A stretch of DNA of 40,276 bases, taken from the NCBI GenBank assembly GCA_913047395.1, contig CAJWUF010000004.1:1-40276 (forward strand), in the 5' to 3' direction. Positions 1-40,045 of the stretch are shown one piece after another. This stretch comes from an uncultured cyanobacterium (lineage in GTDB: Bacteria > Cyanobacteriota > Cyanobacteriia > PCC-6307 > Cyanobiaceae). The translations under genes were made by a program, and so were the position numbers. Below the pieces are notes generated by a model, which was not told the origin of the DNA, made no database searches, and worked only from the letters and a program-made list of their open reading frames with translations. Every line of letters starts with the position of its first letter. The stretch's first letter is position 1.

Positions 1-208
1 GATTTGACCTTACCTTATGAGGAAGATCCTTAGGTTGAGCACACCATACCTACCTCTTTTCGTAAATCAAGTACCATCTATAAGTCACATGAACACTTAG
101 AGATAAATCTCAGGGTTTAGTTTACCTGTTAGGGCCTCAAAGGATGATCAAGCTATCATCAGAGCATTTACACCTATGGCTGGCTCAAAAGAGGCAGGCG
201 AAAAGGAA

Positions 209-268
209 TCAGTCGAGGATGGTTAGTTGGAGAATGTTTCTGGTGGTTCCAATTCCACCAACATAAGT
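209..268 (+). pseudogene. Possible remnant of a third GG leader (SVEDG*LENVSGG|SNSTNIS*)
   Basis: Hand translation: tca gtc gag gat ggt TAG ttg gag aat gtt tct ggt ggt tcc aat tcc acc aac ata agt tga. LENVSGG matches the ELExVxGG leader end; in-frame TAG at 224-226. Confidence 0.35.
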
Positions 269-471
269 TGAATCTCACGGAAGTTCCCTTGGGTAAACCT
301 TTTACTGATGATGAAGTTGAAGCAGTTAGTGGTGATGGTACAGAAAAGGCCGGTGGTGGTTGTCGACCGTTCGTTTCAGATGAACGTGAATGTAATGTCT
401 CAGATCGATCAACAGGCCATCGGATACCACCTTTTGGTTTGGGTCTTGTCTTAGATTTATATGATTGTTGA
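268..471 (+). CDS. Putative double-glycine-type RiPP precursor or remnant (FTDDEVEAVSGDG...AGGG|CRPF...)
   Basis: Provided ORF of 67 aa (TTG start). The segment FTDDEVEAVSG resembles the C-terminal end of Nif11/GG leaders, followed by GGG and a Cys/Ser/Thr-containing tail. The N-terminal half of a leader is missing. Confidence 0.4.
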   Translation: MNLTEVPLGKPFTDDEVEAVSGDGTEKAGGGCRPFVSDERECNVSDRSTGHRIPPFGLGLVLDLYDC

Positions 472-560
472 TATTTAGTTTGCCAGCCTCCAAGAGTCTA
501 ACTGTCAGCATCTGTGCCAAATAAGCATAGCGTTATTGCAGTAAAAGCCACTTAAAGCAA

Positions 561-836
561 ATATCAGAAGAACAACCCAAGGCGTTCATTGTCAAGGTTC
601 AAGTCGACAGCACTCTTCTGGAATAGCTCAAAGCAGAATGTGCTGATATTTCGGAGATTGCTAAGGCTGTTGGGTTTTCAATTATGACTGAGCAACTCAA
701 TTTACATTGTCAAAACCTTTCTGATGCAGAGCTTGAGAATATTATTGGTGGTTCTACTAATTCTGTTTGGTAATCATGTGAGTATCCAGACACTGAAGGC
801 TGCACATACTGGAAGCCGTGCCCACCTAGGCGCTGA
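561..836 (+). pseudogene. Degenerate Nif11-leader lanthipeptide (prochlorosin-like) precursor
   Basis: Frame from 561 reads (ATA)SEEQPKAFIVKVQVDSTLLE*LKAECADISEIAKAVGFSIMTEQLNLHCQNLSDAELENIIGG|STNSVW*SCEYPDTEGCTYWKPCPPRR*. Layout matches a Nif11 leader (SEEQ-KAF--KVQ-D-L-E-LKAE-AD---IAKA-GF-I---LN-H-QNLSD-ELE---GG) followed by a Cys/Thr core. In-frame TAG at 624-626 and TAA at 771-773; ATA where ATG is expected. Confidence 0.8.
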
Positions 837-929: not shown

Positions 930-2003
930 TTAAGCTGAAGTTTCATGCAATGATGTGCTAGTACGCCTGCCGACTAATATCATTGCTGCCAGGAAAGCAA
1001 ACACCTGTAAAGGCAGTCCTGCATTAAGTCCAAATATTTGTGTGAACATACCCATGAGAAGGCTGCCTGCTAGGCCGCCGGCCGAGCTTGAACGGATTAG
1101 AACCTGCCATCGAAGTGGGGCATCTCCTCCCATTGGCGCCATACTTTCTACTAGCGCAGCATCTGTACTTGCAGCAAGGGCTCCAAATGGTACGAAGAGA
1201 ACTGCTGCGCCGATACCTGAAGTGAATTGAGTCAGAATTAGTAGAGCTGCCATTAGTGGATACTTTATTGTTTGCGAGAAGGTTGGCAGTACCCTATTAA
1301 CGCTACGCCCAATACCATAAGCAGCTAATAGCATCCCGAAGTCAAAGCAGTTCCCCTCTCCAATACTGCGAACCCATAGTGCTAGAAGTGCAAAAAGACT
1401 GCCGAATACCAAACCTTGTAGAGCACACAATTTGTTGAAGGGAATCTCAGTCCTTATTTGACTTATTGATCCGACTTGCGAAGTCTCTTGTTTGTTTCGG
1501 TAGGCTAATTGACCCAAAGGTAGAAGTAGTAGTAGTGCTGGAAAATATTGTCTGATAGCCGGAAAAAGCATACCAGTTAGGATATTACCTGAAAGCGATC
1601 CCAGCTCGCTACTTGTGCGTAAGCGATTTACAGGAAGGCCTTTTTCATTAACAATTCTTCTTTGAATTGTCAGCTGGCTCATTTCATTGCCAATACCAAA
1701 AAGGAATGTTGCAATAAACGAAATTAATAACAGGAATTGGACTTTGACTATGGCTATTGATTGCAGATAGCTAACTATTAAAAGAAGAATCAAAGCTATT
1801 AGTATAAGTCCATAGCCACTGCTTTTCCTCTTCAGAGGTAGCAAAACAGGTAGAGTCGCAATCGCTGGCAAAAGACTGTTGATCATTGGAGATACGCTCA
1901 GCCCACTGATGAGCCAAGACGTCGAGGCCATGGTTAGGCTCCTTCCGGCCTGAAAACTTCCCCATCGAATAGAGGAGCCAAGATGATCCTGGCTTGGATT
2001 CAT
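930..2003 (-). CDS. MFS-type transporter / multi-TM permease
   Basis: 357 aa ORF with many hydrophobic TM segments and an MFS-like permease layout. Confidence 0.6.
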   Translation of the reverse strand: MNPSQDHLGSSIRWGSFQAGRSLTMASTSWLISGLSVSPMINSLLPAIATLPVLLPLKRKSSGYGLILIALILLLIVSYLQSIAIVKVQFLLLISFIATFLFGIGNEMSQLTIQRRIVNEKGLPVNRLRTSSELGSLSGNILTGMLFPAIRQYFPALLLLLPLGQLAYRNKQETSQVGSISQIRTEIPFNKLCALQGLVFGSLFALLALWVRSIGEGNCFDFGMLLAAYGIGRSVNRVLPTFSQTIKYPLMAALLILTQFTSGIGAAVLFVPFGALAASTDAALVESMAPMGGDAPLRWQVLIRSSSAGGLAGSLLMGMFTQIFGLNAGLPLQVFAFLAAMILVGRRTSTSLHETSA

Positions 2004-2223
2004 GTCACCACCACAATGTTTCTCTTCTCAATCACTTTGGCACTAACCACAATGATGTGCCATCAATACCTTGGACTCCCTCGGCTCCAAAGCCTTGCTA
2101 TATGACGATATAAAATATAGACATATAAACACCATAACAATACGAACTAGGGCTAAATAGAAGGCCCAGCGTTTAAAGTCAACAAATTAGGCTACGAGAA
2201 ATGCCCTCAAAAGCAATAGATAG

Positions 2224-2349
2224 TCAAGACATAGAGAAGCTCAACCGCCTCTACCTCCATCACACTCATCTGCCGATGAGCTAGAGATTGTTGCCGTCGG
2301 CCCTTGTGGCAATTCAGCTCTGCATGCTCTGTGCTCAAGGGTGTGCTAA
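2224..2349 (+). pseudogene. Possible degenerate prochlorosin-like precursor end (SADELEIVAVG|PCGNSALHALCSRVC*)
   Basis: Frame through 2269-2349 reads SADELEIVAVGPCGNSALHALCSRVC-stop, similar to SDDELE-VAGG plus a Cys/Ser core. Upstream leader similarity (DIEKLNRLYLHHTH) lies in another frame, which implies a frameshift. Confidence 0.4.
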
Positions 2350-2549
2350 TTACACTGAAGGTCAATGTTGTTAACTATTGCGCGAAAACCACAGCCTAAA
2401 TGTCAATGCAATGGCAAGGCTTTTTACGTTATTCGACATCCCAAATCCACTTAAGTATGCCAACCTATACCTTGCTCCTTAAACTTACAGGCAGCAACCA
2501 CCAGCTAAACTAATGGCAGAATCTAGGCCAACCGCAGTAATCTTCTGAA

Positions 2550-3038
2550 TTGACGCCTGTGACGAAAAGGCTCACACTTGCTTATACCTGTAGCAAGCAT
2601 TTTTCTGGATATCCATGCTGCCATAGGCAATGGCGCCATCCTGGTCACTGCCGATTTGTGCATGGCTATAGCCGTAGTTTTACTTTTTGGTTTGCCGCTC
2701 AGCAGCTTGATAGCTACGGATTTGTCGTCGACTTTTCCAGCCTTAGGCCTTTAGAGCAACAACTTCGTGACCAATTTGATCACACCTTCCTAGCCAATGC
2801 GGATGATCCGCTCCTGTCTGAGTGGCAGGAACTGCATGAGCAGGGTGCTGTTGATCTGAGGGTTATGGACAATGTCGGTATGGAGTCCAGCGCTGAACTT
2901 GTTTGGCAATGGGCTAACGCACTTTTACTTGATCGAGATGCTGGACGCACCTGTTGTTGGCGAGTAGAGGCGCGGGAGAATGAAGCTAATGCTGCTTGCT
3001 TTGAAGAACTACCTGAGTGGTTTCAAGCAACTACTTAG
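2550..3038 (+). CDS. 6-pyruvoyl-tetrahydropterin / 6-carboxytetrahydropterin synthase family (QueD-like)
   Basis: CSKHFSGYPCCHRQWRHPGHCRFVHGYSRSF...GFVVDFSSLRPLEQQL...FDHTFL pattern typical of PTPS/QueD. TTG start likely. Confidence 0.75.
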   Translation: MTPVTKRLTLAYTCSKHFSGYPCCHRQWRHPGHCRFVHGYSRSFTFWFAAQQLDSYGFVVDFSSLRPLEQQLRDQFDHTFLANADDPLLSEWQELHEQGAVDLRVMDNVGMESSAELVWQWANALLLDRDAGRTCCWRVEARENEANAACFEELPEWFQATT

Positions 3039-3089
3039 CCCAGATCAAGTTTCATTCTCTCTCTTTGGCAATCTTTGCGCCGATCAGGA

Positions 3090-5681
3090 TTAACTCAATA
3101 CAAGCCTTTCATCTCTCACATCCACACGCACAGTTTGGCTGTCTCCGTATTGACCAGCCAGGATGCTTTTGGCAATAGGGGTTTCTAGCTCGCGTTGGAT
3201 GGCTCGTTTAAGCGGTCTTGCTCCATAAACAGGGTCATAACCTGCATTTGCTAGCCAATCAGCAGCTGTTTCACTGATTTCAAGGTTGAGTTTGCGATCC
3301 TCAAGACGCTCACGTAGCCGATTCACCTGGAGGGCAACAATTTTACGTAGTTCCTCGCGCCTGAGGCTGTGGAAGATAATAGTTTCATCAAGTCTGTTAA
3401 GGAATTCGGGCCTAAAATGAGCATGCAAAGCATCATTAACTCGTCGTTCCATTTCTTTGTATTTTCCTTGATCTCCAGCCAGTTCAAGTATTGATTGGCT
3501 GCCAATATTGCTGGTAAGGATTAGCACTGTATTTGTAAAATCAACGGTGCGACCCTGGCCGTCGGTGACACGTCCATCATCGAGAATCTGTAGCATCACG
3601 TTGAACACATCTGGGTGTGCCTTCTCCACTTCATCGAAGAGGATTACCGCGTACGGGCGTCTGCGTATGGCTTCTGTGAGCTGTCCACCAGCCTCATAGC
3701 CGACATAACCAGGAGGTGCTCCGATCAGTCTGCTTACGGTGTGCTTCTCCATGTATTCCGACATATCGATTCGCACCAAGGCTGCTTCGCTATCGAATAG
3801 TTGAGAGGCCAATGCCTTGGATAGCTCCGTTTTGCCGACTCCTGTAGGGCCAAGAAACAGAAAGCTTGCAATTGGGCGATTTGGATCGCTTAGGCCTGCT
3901 CTGGAACGTTGAATGGCATCAGCAACAGCTTTGACAGCAGGTTTTTGCCCAATCACCCGCTCATGGAGCTCGGCTTCAAGTCCGAGCAGTTTTTCCATTT
4001 CCGATTGCACAAGTTTGGCAACGGGGATACCGGTCCATTTGGCGATAACTTCAGCTATATCGTCTTCTGTGACCTCTTCTCGCAGCAATGATTTGTCTCC
4101 TTTATCACCTTCTTGGGCTAGGGCAGTTTCTTTTTCGATAAGTCGTTTCTGCAATCCCGCCAAAGTTCCATACTCGAGTTCTGCTGCTTTGTTTAGGTCG
4201 TAGCTGCGTTTGGCTTGCTCAACTTGTAATTGCACCTTTTCGATCTCTTCTTTGAGCGAGGAAAGCTCATCAATCGCACCTTTTTCTTGTTGCCACTGGG
4301 CATTTAGGGCGCTCTGTTGCTCTGCTAATTCAGCAAGTTCGCGTTCTAATTTCTCCAGCCTTTCCTTGCTGGCTGAGTCGGATTCGCGTCCTAGCGAAAG
4401 CTTTTCCATTTCAAGCTGCAAAATCTTGCGATCAATTTCATCAATTTCCTCTGGCTTGGAGGTGATTTCCATTTTTAGTCGTGCAGCAGATTCATCCATC
4501 AGATCGATAGCTTTATCTGGTAGAAAACGATCGGCTATATATCGGCTGCTGAGTACGGCTGCTGCTACCAGGGCGTTGTCGGCGATCCGCACACCATGAT
4601 GAACTTCGTAGCGCTCTTTGAGACCACGCAGGATAGAAATGGTGTCTTGCACTGTGGGTTGATCCACAAGTACTTGTTGGAATCTTCTCTCTAGAGCTGG
4701 ATCTTTTTCGATGTGCTGCCGATGCTCATCGAGTGTTGTGGCACCGATGCATCGCAGTTCCCCTCTAGCCAGCATTGGCTTGAGCAGGTTGCTGGCATCC
4801 ATTGCACCACCGGTTGCACCAGCACCAACAACAGTATGGATTTCATCAATAAAAAGTACTATTTGTCCTTCAGAGGCGGTGACTTCTTTGAGCACTGCTT
4901 TGAGTCGCTCTTCGAATTCACCTCGATACTTTGCACCTGCAATTAAGGCACCCATATCGAGAGCTATTAATTGTCTGTTCTGTAGAGCTGCTGGTACATC
5001 ACCGTTGACTATCCGTTGAGCTAATCCTTCAACAATCGCGGTTTTACCAACACCTGGCTCACCGATTAGGACAGGGTTGTTTTTGGTGCGACGGCTGAGA
5101 ATTTGAATGGTGCGCCGGATTTCATCATCCCGTCCGATCACCGGGTCGAGTTTGCCTTCTCGGGCTGCAGCGGTAAGGTCTCTGCCATATTTCTCGAGGG
5201 ACTCGTAGGTTCCTTCTGGGTTCTGATCAGTCACCTTTTGGTTCCCACGTACCGCATCAATTGCGACCTTTAGTTTGCCTGCATCCACGCCGGCTTGACT
5301 GAGCAGTTGACGACCGCAACGGTTGTCTTTGGCTAAGGCCAGGAGAAGGTGCTCTATAGAGATGAAGCTATCGCCGAAGGCTTCTTTGTGTTGTTCTGCC
5401 TGATCGAGAAGATGATTAATCCCTTTACCTACATAGACAGACTCTGGTGCTGCTTGCAGGGTGGGCTGTTTCTGGAGGTGAGCTTCAAGGTCTGTTTGCA
5501 GATTGCCGATCAATACACCGGCTTTCTCAAGGATTCTGCCCGCCAAGCCATTTTGATCAAGCAATGACAGGAATAAATGTTCTGTTTCAAGTTGCTGCTG
5601 TTTGCGTTGAAGGGCTAGTTGCTGTGCCGAAACAATTGCGGCCCAGGCTTTTTCGGTAAATTTCTCCGCAGTTGGTTGCAT
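3090..5681 (-). CDS. clpB: ATP-dependent chaperone ClpB
   Basis: 863 aa with Clp N domain, two Walker A motifs ([27 protein letters not shown]), a coiled-coil middle domain and [36 protein letters not shown]. Confidence 0.98.
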
Positions 5682-5929: not shown

Positions 5930-6175
5930 TTATTTGCGTATTGGAGGGATTTTGCTATTTTCAAACCAGTCCTCTATCCGTTGAGAGCTGTTTTCATTTT
6001 CAAGGTCACAAAGCTTGATAGAAAAACCATATCGTGAAGCTAAGTTTAATAGATCCTGATGACTAGAGCAATTCCTTAATTCAAGTCGCAAGGATAAGCT
6101 GTGCTCAGCAGCTTGCAGAAGATCAATCAGCCCTTGGCGTGACATTAGGCTTGTAAATATGATCGGATGATACAT
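5930..6175 (-). CDS. Small Nif11-domain-like protein without GG motif
   Basis: MSRQGLIDLLQAAEHSLSLRLELRNCSSHQDLLNLASRYGFSIKLCDLENENSSQRIEDWFE resembles the Nif11 domain (LxxFLxxxxxxxxLxxxLxxxxxxxxxxxxAxxxGFxIxxxDL). Likely start is the internal ATG at 6145. Confidence 0.55.
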   Translation of the reverse strand: MYHPIIFTSLMSRQGLIDLLQAAEHSLSLRLELRNCSSHQDLLNLASRYGFSIKLCDLENENSSQRIEDWFENSKIPPIRK

Positions 6176-25144: not shown

Positions 25145-26647
25145 CTATTTAAGAGTTTCTCCGTTGAGTTCTCTGACTAGCTCAAAAGGGCTATGGCTTG
25201 GTTGAGTGCTTACAAGTCTTTGTCTTGCTGCCTTTCGTGCAGATCCCTGAAGGCACAGATCCTGAGGCAATGTGTCTAGAGACCATCGGTAGCGATCTGC
25301 CACGCTGCTGTTGATAATGAATCCCTGCCCAAGAAGTGTTTCGAGGCTTCGGCGAAGCCTTTCTCGCCATAGACCTCCGAGTGTTATAGGAAACAAACTA
25401 GAGGAACCATTTAGGCCATGCTCGAGCAGAGCTGTTGAATCAATGCAATAGCCCAGAGCCCCATAGCCACCAAGGTGTAGGTGATCTGTGCTGGCTGCCA
25501 AGTTATGCACTGCTGCCATTAATTCGGTGAACTCCATTGCATCGCTGAGACGTTGACCAGTGAATGGCTCGCCTGGGTATGCGACTGTCCCGTTATGGCG
25601 ATCGTTCTGCCAGGGACGGTGCAGATCATTCATGGCGGCCCAGCCATTTACTCCTTCTATTCCCTGGTAGTACTGCAGCAGAATGTTGTCGCCCTTTTGT
25701 GGCTTGAGCTCCATTTCGAAGCTGCAATGCGGTAGCAGCGCGAGGATCTCCTGATTGTGCTCATCTTCAAGGCCGGTTCGATATGGCACTGCTAGAGGAA
25801 TCTGTCGCCAACCCCCGCTTTCAACTGGCTGGCTGGCTCCCAGTCCGAAGCTGGCAACACTGGCTCTGATTCTTCCACGACATTGCCAACCCTGATTGAT
25901 CAACAGATCAATTAGAGATTGCCCTGAGGGAAGACCCTCGAAGACAAAGGCTTCTGAGGGGTTCCATTGCGCTGGAAGGCGATTGGCGGCAAGGCGGTTG
26001 AGCACTTGGGCCAGGATTTTATTCATTCTCTGCGATGACTTGTTTTGAATCATTGCCAACCCTTCGTTATGCCAGACCAGTGCATTACCGAGTGCGGCAA
26101 GGCGTTCCTTTAAAGGGGGTGGGCAAGCACCCTTTCCCTTGTCATGTTGAGTTGTCCCTGCTGTGGATGGTAATTGTCGATTCGCTAGCGCTTGGCAGCT
26201 GTTTAGATCGTTTGGCAGGGCTATGTCATGACCTGGTTCTAGGGCGATTGATTCTTGACGCCAGCGTTCAATGGCATTTGGCTGTTGGCTTTCTCGAGGG
26301 GGTATTAGATGCTGGAGGTCATCTGCAAGGGCTGCCAGTAGCAAAGGACTTAGTAGGCCATCTCCTAATAGGGCGGCAATTCCTCTTAGTCGCTCTGGCA
26401 GGTAGGCGGGAGCCATTCGCCAGCCCCTCGGAAGGATGGCCAGTAGTGGTATCAGGCGTTGATGGTTTAGATCACGCAACAACTCACTAAGTAGTTGGTC
26501 ACGGCGGATGCCCTGCCGCAGGCAGCTGGTCTCAAGTACGTTCTGCAGTCCGATGAGTGCTGCAATGTGCGTCTGGTCATGCTCGTCTATTCCCCAGTTT
26601 TGAGATAGGCCGAGGGGATCTTTAGACAGCGGTATCTTTTCAGTCAT
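25145..26647 (-). CDS. Hypothetical cyanobacterial protein
   Basis: 500 aa continuous ORF directly downstream of the M3 peptidase (8-nt overlap); no family recognised. Confidence 0.6.
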   Translation of the reverse strand: MTEKIPLSKDPLGLSQNWGIDEHDQTHIAALIGLQNVLETSCLRQGIRRDQLLSELLRDLNHQRLIPLLAILPRGWRMAPAYLPERLRGIAALLGDGLLSPLLLAALADDLQHLIPPRESQQPNAIERWRQESIALEPGHDIALPNDLNSCQALANRQLPSTAGTTQHDKGKGACPPPLKERLAALGNALVWHNEGLAMIQNKSSQRMNKILAQVLNRLAANRLPAQWNPSEAFVFEGLPSGQSLIDLLINQGWQCRGRIRASVASFGLGASQPVESGGWRQIPLAVPYRTGLEDEHNQEILALLPHCSFEMELKPQKGDNILLQYYQGIEGVNGWAAMNDLHRPWQNDRHNGTVAYPGEPFTGQRLSDAMEFTELMAAVHNLAASTDHLHLGGYGALGYCIDSTALLEHGLNGSSSLFPITLGGLWRERLRRSLETLLGQGFIINSSVADRYRWSLDTLPQDLCLQGSARKAARQRLVSTQPSHSPFELVRELNGETLK

Positions 26648-31377: not shown

Positions 31378-32451
31378 CTACCTGTCTAGTTGGTTCAGTT
31401 TCCCACCTTGCTCTGTGAATGTGTGAGCTCTACATGCTGCACTGAACAAGCCGGCATCGGGGTCGACTATCGCCATTACTGGCAATTGCTCTAGAAATGC
31501 TCGGAATCGCCCCTTATTACGGAAAGCTTCAAGGAAGGTGCTTGAACGAAGTCCTTGGAGTTGTTTTGCGGCGGTGCCCCCAGCCACCCAGAGGCCTCCA
31601 GTGCATAGTTCCTGCAGAGCTAAGTCCCCTGCGGCAGAGCCATAAGCACTTAGCCAGAGCTGCACAGCTTCGTTGATAACTAAATCACCATCTTCAGCGG
31701 CTTGGCTAGCGAGGGCAGGTAGGTCTGGCTTATCGCAATGGTCATCTGCACCATGGCGCCAAAAATCGGCTATTTCGCGTAGAGGATGACCCTCGGCATC
31801 GCTTTGCTGTAGGCGCCAGCGCACTACATGGCCTAGACCGGTACCGCTGACAATTCGCTCCACTGAGAGGCGTTTGAGCTGCAGGTCAGCCTTGAGCCAC
31901 TCAGATAGCCGCCATTCACTTTCTGAGCGGGGGGCAAATTCACGATGTCCTCCTTCACTGGGGAGAGCAATTATTCCTTCTTTTGTTGTCAGGCCACGGG
32001 CCATTCCAAGTCCAGTTCCTGCACCAAGAATCGCCACTGGACCTTGTTTGGGGGTGTCTTTCTGCGCGGGCTGCAGCTCTACTTGCTGTGTGGTGTTTAG
32101 AAAGGGCAGGCCGTAGATCAGTACGCCAAAGTCGTTTATCAGTTCAAGTTGTTTTAGTCCCACCGTTGCGCATAGGTCTTTTTCCTTCAAGCTCCAGGGA
32201 AGATTGGTGATTTGAGCCTCACCATTACTAACTGGTCCTGCCACGGCTATGCAGCCGTTTTGGGGCTTCTCCATCCCTGTTGGTAGATGGGCGATGAAGT
32301 CGCCAAGCATGGGCCCAAGTGAAGACCATTCAGTGGATACATACCTTCGCTGATGCTGGGTAGTGAGTTGATTTTCGTCCCAGCGATATAGCGCAAGTAG
32401 GGTTTTTGTACCCCCTAAATCCCCTGCTAGAAAGGTTTTCGGGGCCACCAT
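31378..32451 (-). CDS. glk: Glucokinase
   Basis: FLAGDLGGTKTLLALY, IAVAGPVSNGEAQITNLPW, LELINDFGVLIYGL, AILGAGTGLGMARG. Confidence 0.95.
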   Translation of the reverse strand: MVAPKTFLAGDLGGTKTLLALYRWDENQLTTQHQRRYVSTEWSSLGPMLGDFIAHLPTGMEKPQNGCIAVAGPVSNGEAQITNLPWSLKEKDLCATVGLKQLELINDFGVLIYGLPFLNTTQQVELQPAQKDTPKQGPVAILGAGTGLGMARGLTTKEGIIALPSEGGHREFAPRSESEWRLSEWLKADLQLKRLSVERIVSGTGLGHVVRWRLQQSDAEGHPLREIADFWRHGADDHCDKPDLPALASQAAEDGDLVINEAVQLWLSAYGSAAGDLALQELCTGGLWVAGGTAAKQLQGLRSSTFLEAFRNKGRFRAFLEQLPVMAIVDPDAGLFSAACRAHTFTEQGGKLNQLDR

Positions 32452-38659: not shown

Positions 38660-40045
38660 TTGCACGAATGGTGGTACCCCGTGAAGCTTCATAGCCTTCT
38701 TCTCGATCTTGTTCCTCGCTCTCCTGCCTTGATTGGTCGGATTGCACTGTTTACAGGGATTCTCGTCCTGGGTCAGTGGGTATTCACAGATTTAATTCCA
38801 GTACCAGGCGGCGGGCTTGGTTTGATGGCTGCTGGTGCAGGGGTCTGGTGGTTATCGAGGCCTACTTTGCCGGCTCGATTTGAGAAGCCCGACTCTGTGC
38901 AGGGTTGGATTCGTCGCTGCAAAGAGGTTCTTGATCAGTTCGAAGATTTAGAAGATGAGGTAGAAGCGGTTGGGCTACGCCAGCAGCGCAGTAAGGCCCT
39001 TGATCTTGTACTCGAGCGTTCCGAACCTCAAAGACTTGCATTGGTTAGTTCTGGAGAGAACTCTTCTGCTAATCATCCCGATGTGAAGTCAGCCATTTCG
39101 GCTGCCACTCCACTCACGATTAGCCTTGCTAAACCTCTCTCGCATACAGATCAGTCCTGGATTTGGCCCACGGCTCTAGATGAGCAGGATGTCTTGCTTT
39201 ATGTCTTGCCTTTGCCATTGATGGCAGCGGACCTTCTTTGGTTAGAGAGGGTTCCAGTCGATCAACCAACCTGGATGATCGTTTCTTGGCAGGATTCATC
39301 TAGTTGGGTTGATCAACTACAAGCGCTTCAGGCTCAGTTGCCACAACGATTCAGCGATCAGGTGCTTCGTTGGACAGGCAATCAAGAGGACCTCTGTGAA
39401 GCCCTTGCACCGGTCAGGAGTCTTCTAGACCATCCCCAGCGAAACTTGGAGACCACCCGTAAGCGTTTACTGGGCAGCCTGCACCGCAGCTGGCAAGCAG
39501 AACTAGAGCAGTTGCGTAGGCAGCGGTTCCTTGGCATCCAAAAGCGCACTCAATGGTTGGTTGCAGGGGCTGTTTTTGTTTCTCCTGTACCGACGACTGA
39601 TCTTTTGGCCGTAGCTGTGGTCAATGGATTGATGATTAAAGAAATGGCAGGCATTTGGGGATGCTCCTTGAAACCGGAAGTCCTGCAGTTGGCTGCTCGG
39701 CAGTTGGCAGGGGTTGCCCTGGCTCAAGGGGTGGTGGAATGGAGTGGCCAGGCCCTCTTGGGAGTAGCCAAGTTGGATGGCAGTAGCTGGTTTGCAGCGG
39801 GTGCTCTTCAGGCGCTTAGTGCTGCTTATCTCACTCGTGTTGTTGGACGTTCGATGGCCGATTGGCTGGCGTTGAACAGCGGTGTCGCTGAGCCAGATCT
39901 GGAAGCCTTGAAGTTGCAGGCACCATTGCTGGTGGCTAAGGCTGCAGAGCAGGAGCGCCTTGACTGGTCAAGCTTTTTGCAACAGGGAACCAGCTGGATA
40001 AAGGATTTTGCAAGCCAGCGGGCCATCGAATCAAGCCCTGCTTAG
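38660..40045 (+). CDS. DUF697-type membrane protein
   Basis: N-terminal TM pair; C-terminal FLGIQKRTQWLVAGAVFVSPVPTTDLLAVAVVNGLMIKEMAGIWG...GQALLG typical of DUF697. TTG start. Confidence 0.7.
   Translation: MHEWWYPVKLHSLLLDLVPRSPALIGRIALFTGILVLGQWVFTDLIPVPGGGLGLMAAGAGVWWLSRPTLPARFEKPDSVQGWIRRCKEVLDQFEDLEDEVEAVGLRQQRSKALDLVLERSEPQRLALVSSGENSSANHPDVKSAISAATPLTISLAKPLSHTDQSWIWPTALDEQDVLLYVLPLPLMAADLLWLERVPVDQPTWMIVSWQDSSSWVDQLQALQAQLPQRFSDQVLRWTGNQEDLCEALAPVRSLLDHPQRNLETTRKRLLGSLHRSWQAELEQLRRQRFLGIQKRTQWLVAGAVFVSPVPTTDLLAVAVVNGLMIKEMAGIWGCSLKPEVLQLAARQLAGVALAQGVVEWSGQALLGVAKLDGSSWFAAGALQALSAAYLTRVVGRSMADWLALNSGVAEPDLEALKLQAPLLVAKAAEQERLDWSSFLQQGTSWIKDFASQRAIESSPA

Follow-up and report, generated by a model that had tools for sequence, protein, structure and literature searches.

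Prochlorosins are ring-forming peptides made by some deep-living marine cyanobacteria. On the stretch of cyanobacterial DNA analysed here (40,276 nucleotides, hereafter the window) we identified a pseudogene of the prochlorosin precursor gene procA, three further relic pieces and one intact transporter-like gene between the contig end and about position 2527, followed by a conserved segment with a PTPS-family gene and clpB (Table 1). The window derives from a draft genome (G000; 1.76 Mb, 151 contigs, 86% complete) that was compared with the congeners AG-412-I05 (G001), the MIT9313-type G002, MIT 0701 (G003) and G004.

Table 1. Features between the contig end and clpB, with positions in the window.
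Feature	Position	Strand	Details
Relic A, procA-like leader end (LENVSGGS), frameshifted and stop-interrupted	199–339	+	blastn 4e-9, tblastn 5e-6
Conserved upstream element of one procA subfamily	542–560	+	AAAAGCCACT(A/T)AAAG(T/C)AA
procA (prochlorosin precursor) pseudogene	561–836	+	Nif11 leader 561–752 with GG end, remnant core 753–833, TGA 834–836
Start position	561–563	+	ATA; ATG, GTG or TTG in aligned intact homologues
Nonsense codon TAG	624–626	+	Gln in intact leaders (alignment)
In-frame TAA	771–773	+	seven codons past GG
MFS-like membrane protein, intact, lineage-specific	930–2003	-	within decayed island
Relic C, fragment of small ORF beside procA arrays in G002	2098–2271	+	blastn 2e-12
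Relic D, procA upstream region and first codons	2407–2521	+	blastn 6e-7 to 3e-5
Conserved flank, PTPS-family gene and clpB	2527–5681		syntenic in G002, G003 and G004
PTPS/QueD-family gene	2550–3038	+	adjoins clpB in relatives too; TTG start as called
clpB	3090–5681	-	open; protein 93–94% identical to relatives

The procA relic

The translation, the GG end, the ATA at 561, the stops at 624 and 771 and the frame to 836 are exactly as described in an earlier note on this DNA, and its reading of the locus as a prochlorosin-like precursor gene that has decayed and escaped ORF calling was borne out by both profile and DNA matches. Residues 2–64 of the conceptual protein matched TIGR03798 (leader_Nif11) at 8.3e-14 and 51.6 bits, against a curated cut-off of 32.3 bits, and the protein matched Pfam Nif11 more weakly (4e-4). 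The leader end ELENIIGG aligns to ELEGVAGG, and the double-glycine site is present. At the DNA level, 542–736 is ~75% identical to intact procA genes (E 9e-34; best of 300 dinucleotide shuffles, 7e-4), 561–736 aligns to many intact procA genes with 65–76% identity, and the relic leader protein is 61–67% identical to the closest intact leaders. Homologous DNA extends 19 bases upstream of the relic start and covers an element found ahead of intact genes in L063, L064 and L013 as well, with a close variant in L011; AAAAGCCACTAAAAGTAA stands before GTG or TTG in the intact homologues of MIT 0701 (L063) and AG-412-I05 (L064). As this upstream element is common to intact homologues, the relic can be assigned to a recognisable procA subfamily.

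As assembled, the gene is neither intact nor translatable. Its ATA aligns to the GTG of L063 and the TTG of L064, both with the same upstream sequence, the stretch from the upstream in-frame stop (528) to 561 has no in-frame ATG, GTG or TTG that could provide an alternative start, and the first in-frame ATG (684) is already within the leader, which is also altered at residues that are otherwise invariant. Because the start is lost, two stops interrupt the frame and an alternative start is lacking, the gene was filed solely as a pseudogene. The remnant core reads STNSVW, a stop and SCEYPDTEGCTYWKPCPPRR. Of the Cys/Ser/Thr core proposed earlier, three Cys are present, but only in the 20 codons past the TAA at 771, which have no homologue and whose open frame could be due to chance; the call of a core is accordingly weaker than that of a leader. 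Likewise, of the 92 codons over which the frame was said to be intact, only the ~64 of the leader make a convincing case. An imperfect direct repeat, CTGAAGG(C/T)TGCAC(A/C)TACT, 40 bases apart, spans the end of the relic core (793–851).

The dN/dS of the relic versus intact leaders is ~0.15–0.34, similar to that of intact leaders versus their consensus and thus no sign of relaxed constraint relative to intact pairs; the ratio does not tell recent decay from weak ongoing constraint, and it was used only as an argument for a long functional past. Values like those of intact leaders point to such a past and to late inactivation, so that the recent inactivation previously suggested is probable.

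Decayed island and conserved flank

Because 199–339, 2098–2271 and 2407–2521 match MIT9313-type prochlorosin islands, the DNA from the contig end to ~2527 is a decayed prochlorosin island at a breakpoint beside the conserved PTPS–clpB segment. The precursor, which had been taken for a lone one, sits amid this debris. In G002, the DNA matching relic A lies 1.1 kb upstream of procM; relic A also repeats 723–754, the leader end of the 561–836 relic, which suggests that it is itself a decayed procA. Relic C is 69% identical to two places in G002, and relic D, truncated near the synteny breakpoint, matches the upstream regions of several procA genes in the same genome. As a control for relics A, C and D, 300 shuffles of either flank were searched, none of which reached 1e-3. 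Two candidates were discarded: a second procA core at 2250–2340 (SADELEIVAVGPCGNSALHALCSRVC), where the DNA matches another small ORF, read in a different frame, and relic A as a separate peptide family, which was unsupported beyond G002 among 300 genomes of the family. The protein encoded at 930–2003 has its sole relative (35%) in AG-412-I05 and gave a weak hint of Pfam MFS_3 (E 0.06).

The synteny match to the relatives stops at about 2527–2549. The order PTPS–clpB–Nif11–plastocyanin is kept in G002, PTPS–clpB–Nif11 in G003 and the region from PTPS through clpB in G004. Beyond PTPS, all three genomes have a gene that, going by its sequence, we take to be hisIE-like, while the window has the decayed island up to the contig end. 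The PTPS/QueD-family protein scores far under the QueD equivalog cut-off. Two intact Nif11 proteins without GG are encoded in the genome, one of 81 residues adjoining clpB (5930–6175) and conserved genus-wide, the other at G000:C43:2578. Both share the Nif11 domain with the relic and differ from it in being intact, lacking GG and having counterparts in relatives across the genus; by these criteria, neither is a RiPP precursor.

Prochlorosin genes in this genome and in relatives

In this precursor family, the GG site is cut by a C39 peptidase. Searches for LanM and its LanC-like domain with PF13575, PF05147 and full ProcM gave nothing significant in the assembled 86% of the genome and were positive in G001–G003; nor was any PF03412 match to a C39 peptidase found in the same 86%, whereas the peptidase is present in all four congeners. 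A possible LanM remnant at G000:C15:6806–6952 (E 0.046) was dropped, there being no blastn DNA match and no LanM-profile match at this place. The three Nif11-GG leader genes found are all broken, namely the 561–836 relic, a fragment at C2:15483 and C2:18390–18587 (L001), whose sole lesion is a TAG in a Gln codon (codon 5). The L001 leader is otherwise complete and its core contains Cys (KCVEGITDMGDSFWCCHVSTN), so that it is better preserved than the relic of the window. The genome search for lanM and other Nif11-GG leaders proposed in the earlier note thus returned two such leaders, both broken, and no lanM in the assembled 86%; nor was the C39 peptidase found there, and the note's view that the precursor is served in trans by ProcM did not hold.

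The LanM-positive congeners each have 13–38 Nif11-leader matches, mostly intact and scattered over the chromosome. In G004, nearest to this genome by clpB among the genomes with that gene (88.5% vs 84%; no orthologue available from G001), LanM was not found; its single GG-type leader (C51) no longer has the N-terminal motif and shows GR instead of GG, and C39-peptidase matches are retained. Assembled sizes are 2.1–2.6 Mb for the LanM-positive and 1.5–1.8 Mb for the LanM-negative genomes.

The relic resembles ProcA of MIT9313-type Prochlorococcus (G001–G003) in its Nif11 leader, GG end, upstream element and an island setting that includes a small companion ORF, and differs in its missing start, its two in-frame stops and a genome in which no LanM was found. 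Its leader is 66% identical to that of SyncA of Synechococcus (e.g. UW105), whose leader gene is open, unlike the relic. Strain UW105 has additional putative tailoring enzymes (PMC10783134). In intact members a ProcM-like enzyme, guided by the leader, carries out dehydration and cyclisation, and the GG motif takes part in cleavage and transport (PMC10783134). Within Prochlorococcus, prochlorosins have been recorded in clade LLIV (PMC10783134), for which specific islands with lanthipeptide genes have been described (PMC7522525), and LanM occurs in nine of twelve precursor-bearing strains (PMC10783134). Given these islands and the known strains with precursors and no LanM, a decayed copy is to be expected.

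Probable loss of the pathway and alternative readings

Because LanM, the C39 peptidase and an intact precursor are all lacking in G000 as assembled, the whole pathway has most likely been lost, and we consider it very probable that 561–836 is a dead procA gene of a prochlorosin system that disappeared entirely and recently in a small-genome lineage. The ancestral gene would have coded for a class II lanthipeptide precursor whose Nif11 leader was recognised by a ProcM-type LanM and whose GG site was cleaved by a C39 peptidase-transporter. Purifying selection would have acted on the gene through most of its history, before the start codon was lost and two stops arose. The DNA up to ~2527 would once have been a prochlorosin island, the pieces of which now lie as relics around one intact transporter-like gene. 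As to the order of events, we infer that the enzyme or its benefit was most likely lost first and that precursors and islands decayed afterwards. With no start, two stops and no enzyme, the modification, cleavage and transport steps cannot, on present evidence, occur for the relic.

Alternatively, a single gene may have died in a functioning system through the normal birth and death of procA genes, with lanM and intact precursors in the unassembled 14%. LanM could lie in this missing part, and pseudogenes are common in the procA family, judging from LanM-positive AG-412-I05 with its broken copies L076 462 (TAA in the leader) and L077 33 (ATT start plus TAA), so that one broken copy alone is no proof of pathway loss. 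A set like that of the congeners should, however, mostly fall in the assembled 86%, where just three broken genes were seen and where both LanM and the C39 peptidase are missing, and we regard this alternative as unlikely. Much less probable still is an error of assembly or amplification that placed the lesions in an intact gene. The lesions are read from the assembly of a draft genome, <1 kb from a contig end, but three of them, together with changes at invariant leader residues, fall within one short gene, and debris adjoins the relic, yet clpB, with its protein 93–94% identical to relatives, and the remaining long genes of the window are uninterrupted. We give equally little credence to a residual expressed prochlorosin system with an unassembled LanM, in which single-stop precursors like C2:18390 would be made by TAG read-through. 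That the stops of 561–836 are read through, as had also been considered, or TAG is recoded, so that a peptide is still made, is the least credible reading: the leader is otherwise continuous and C2:18390 has one lesion only, but here two different stops accompany an ATA start, TAG normally terminates the window's ORFs 25145–26647, 31378–32451 and 38660–40045, and no LanM was found to modify the product.

Taken as a trace of whole-pathway loss, which it mainly documents, the relic itself is an ordinary pseudogene of mild evolutionary interest, and alone it matters little. The addition made here is one genome whose detected prochlorosin parts are all gone or broken. A lineage near the producers that is without the system, with its fragments still recognisable, provides a natural comparison, in ecology, particle association and genome size, for what prochlorosins are for.
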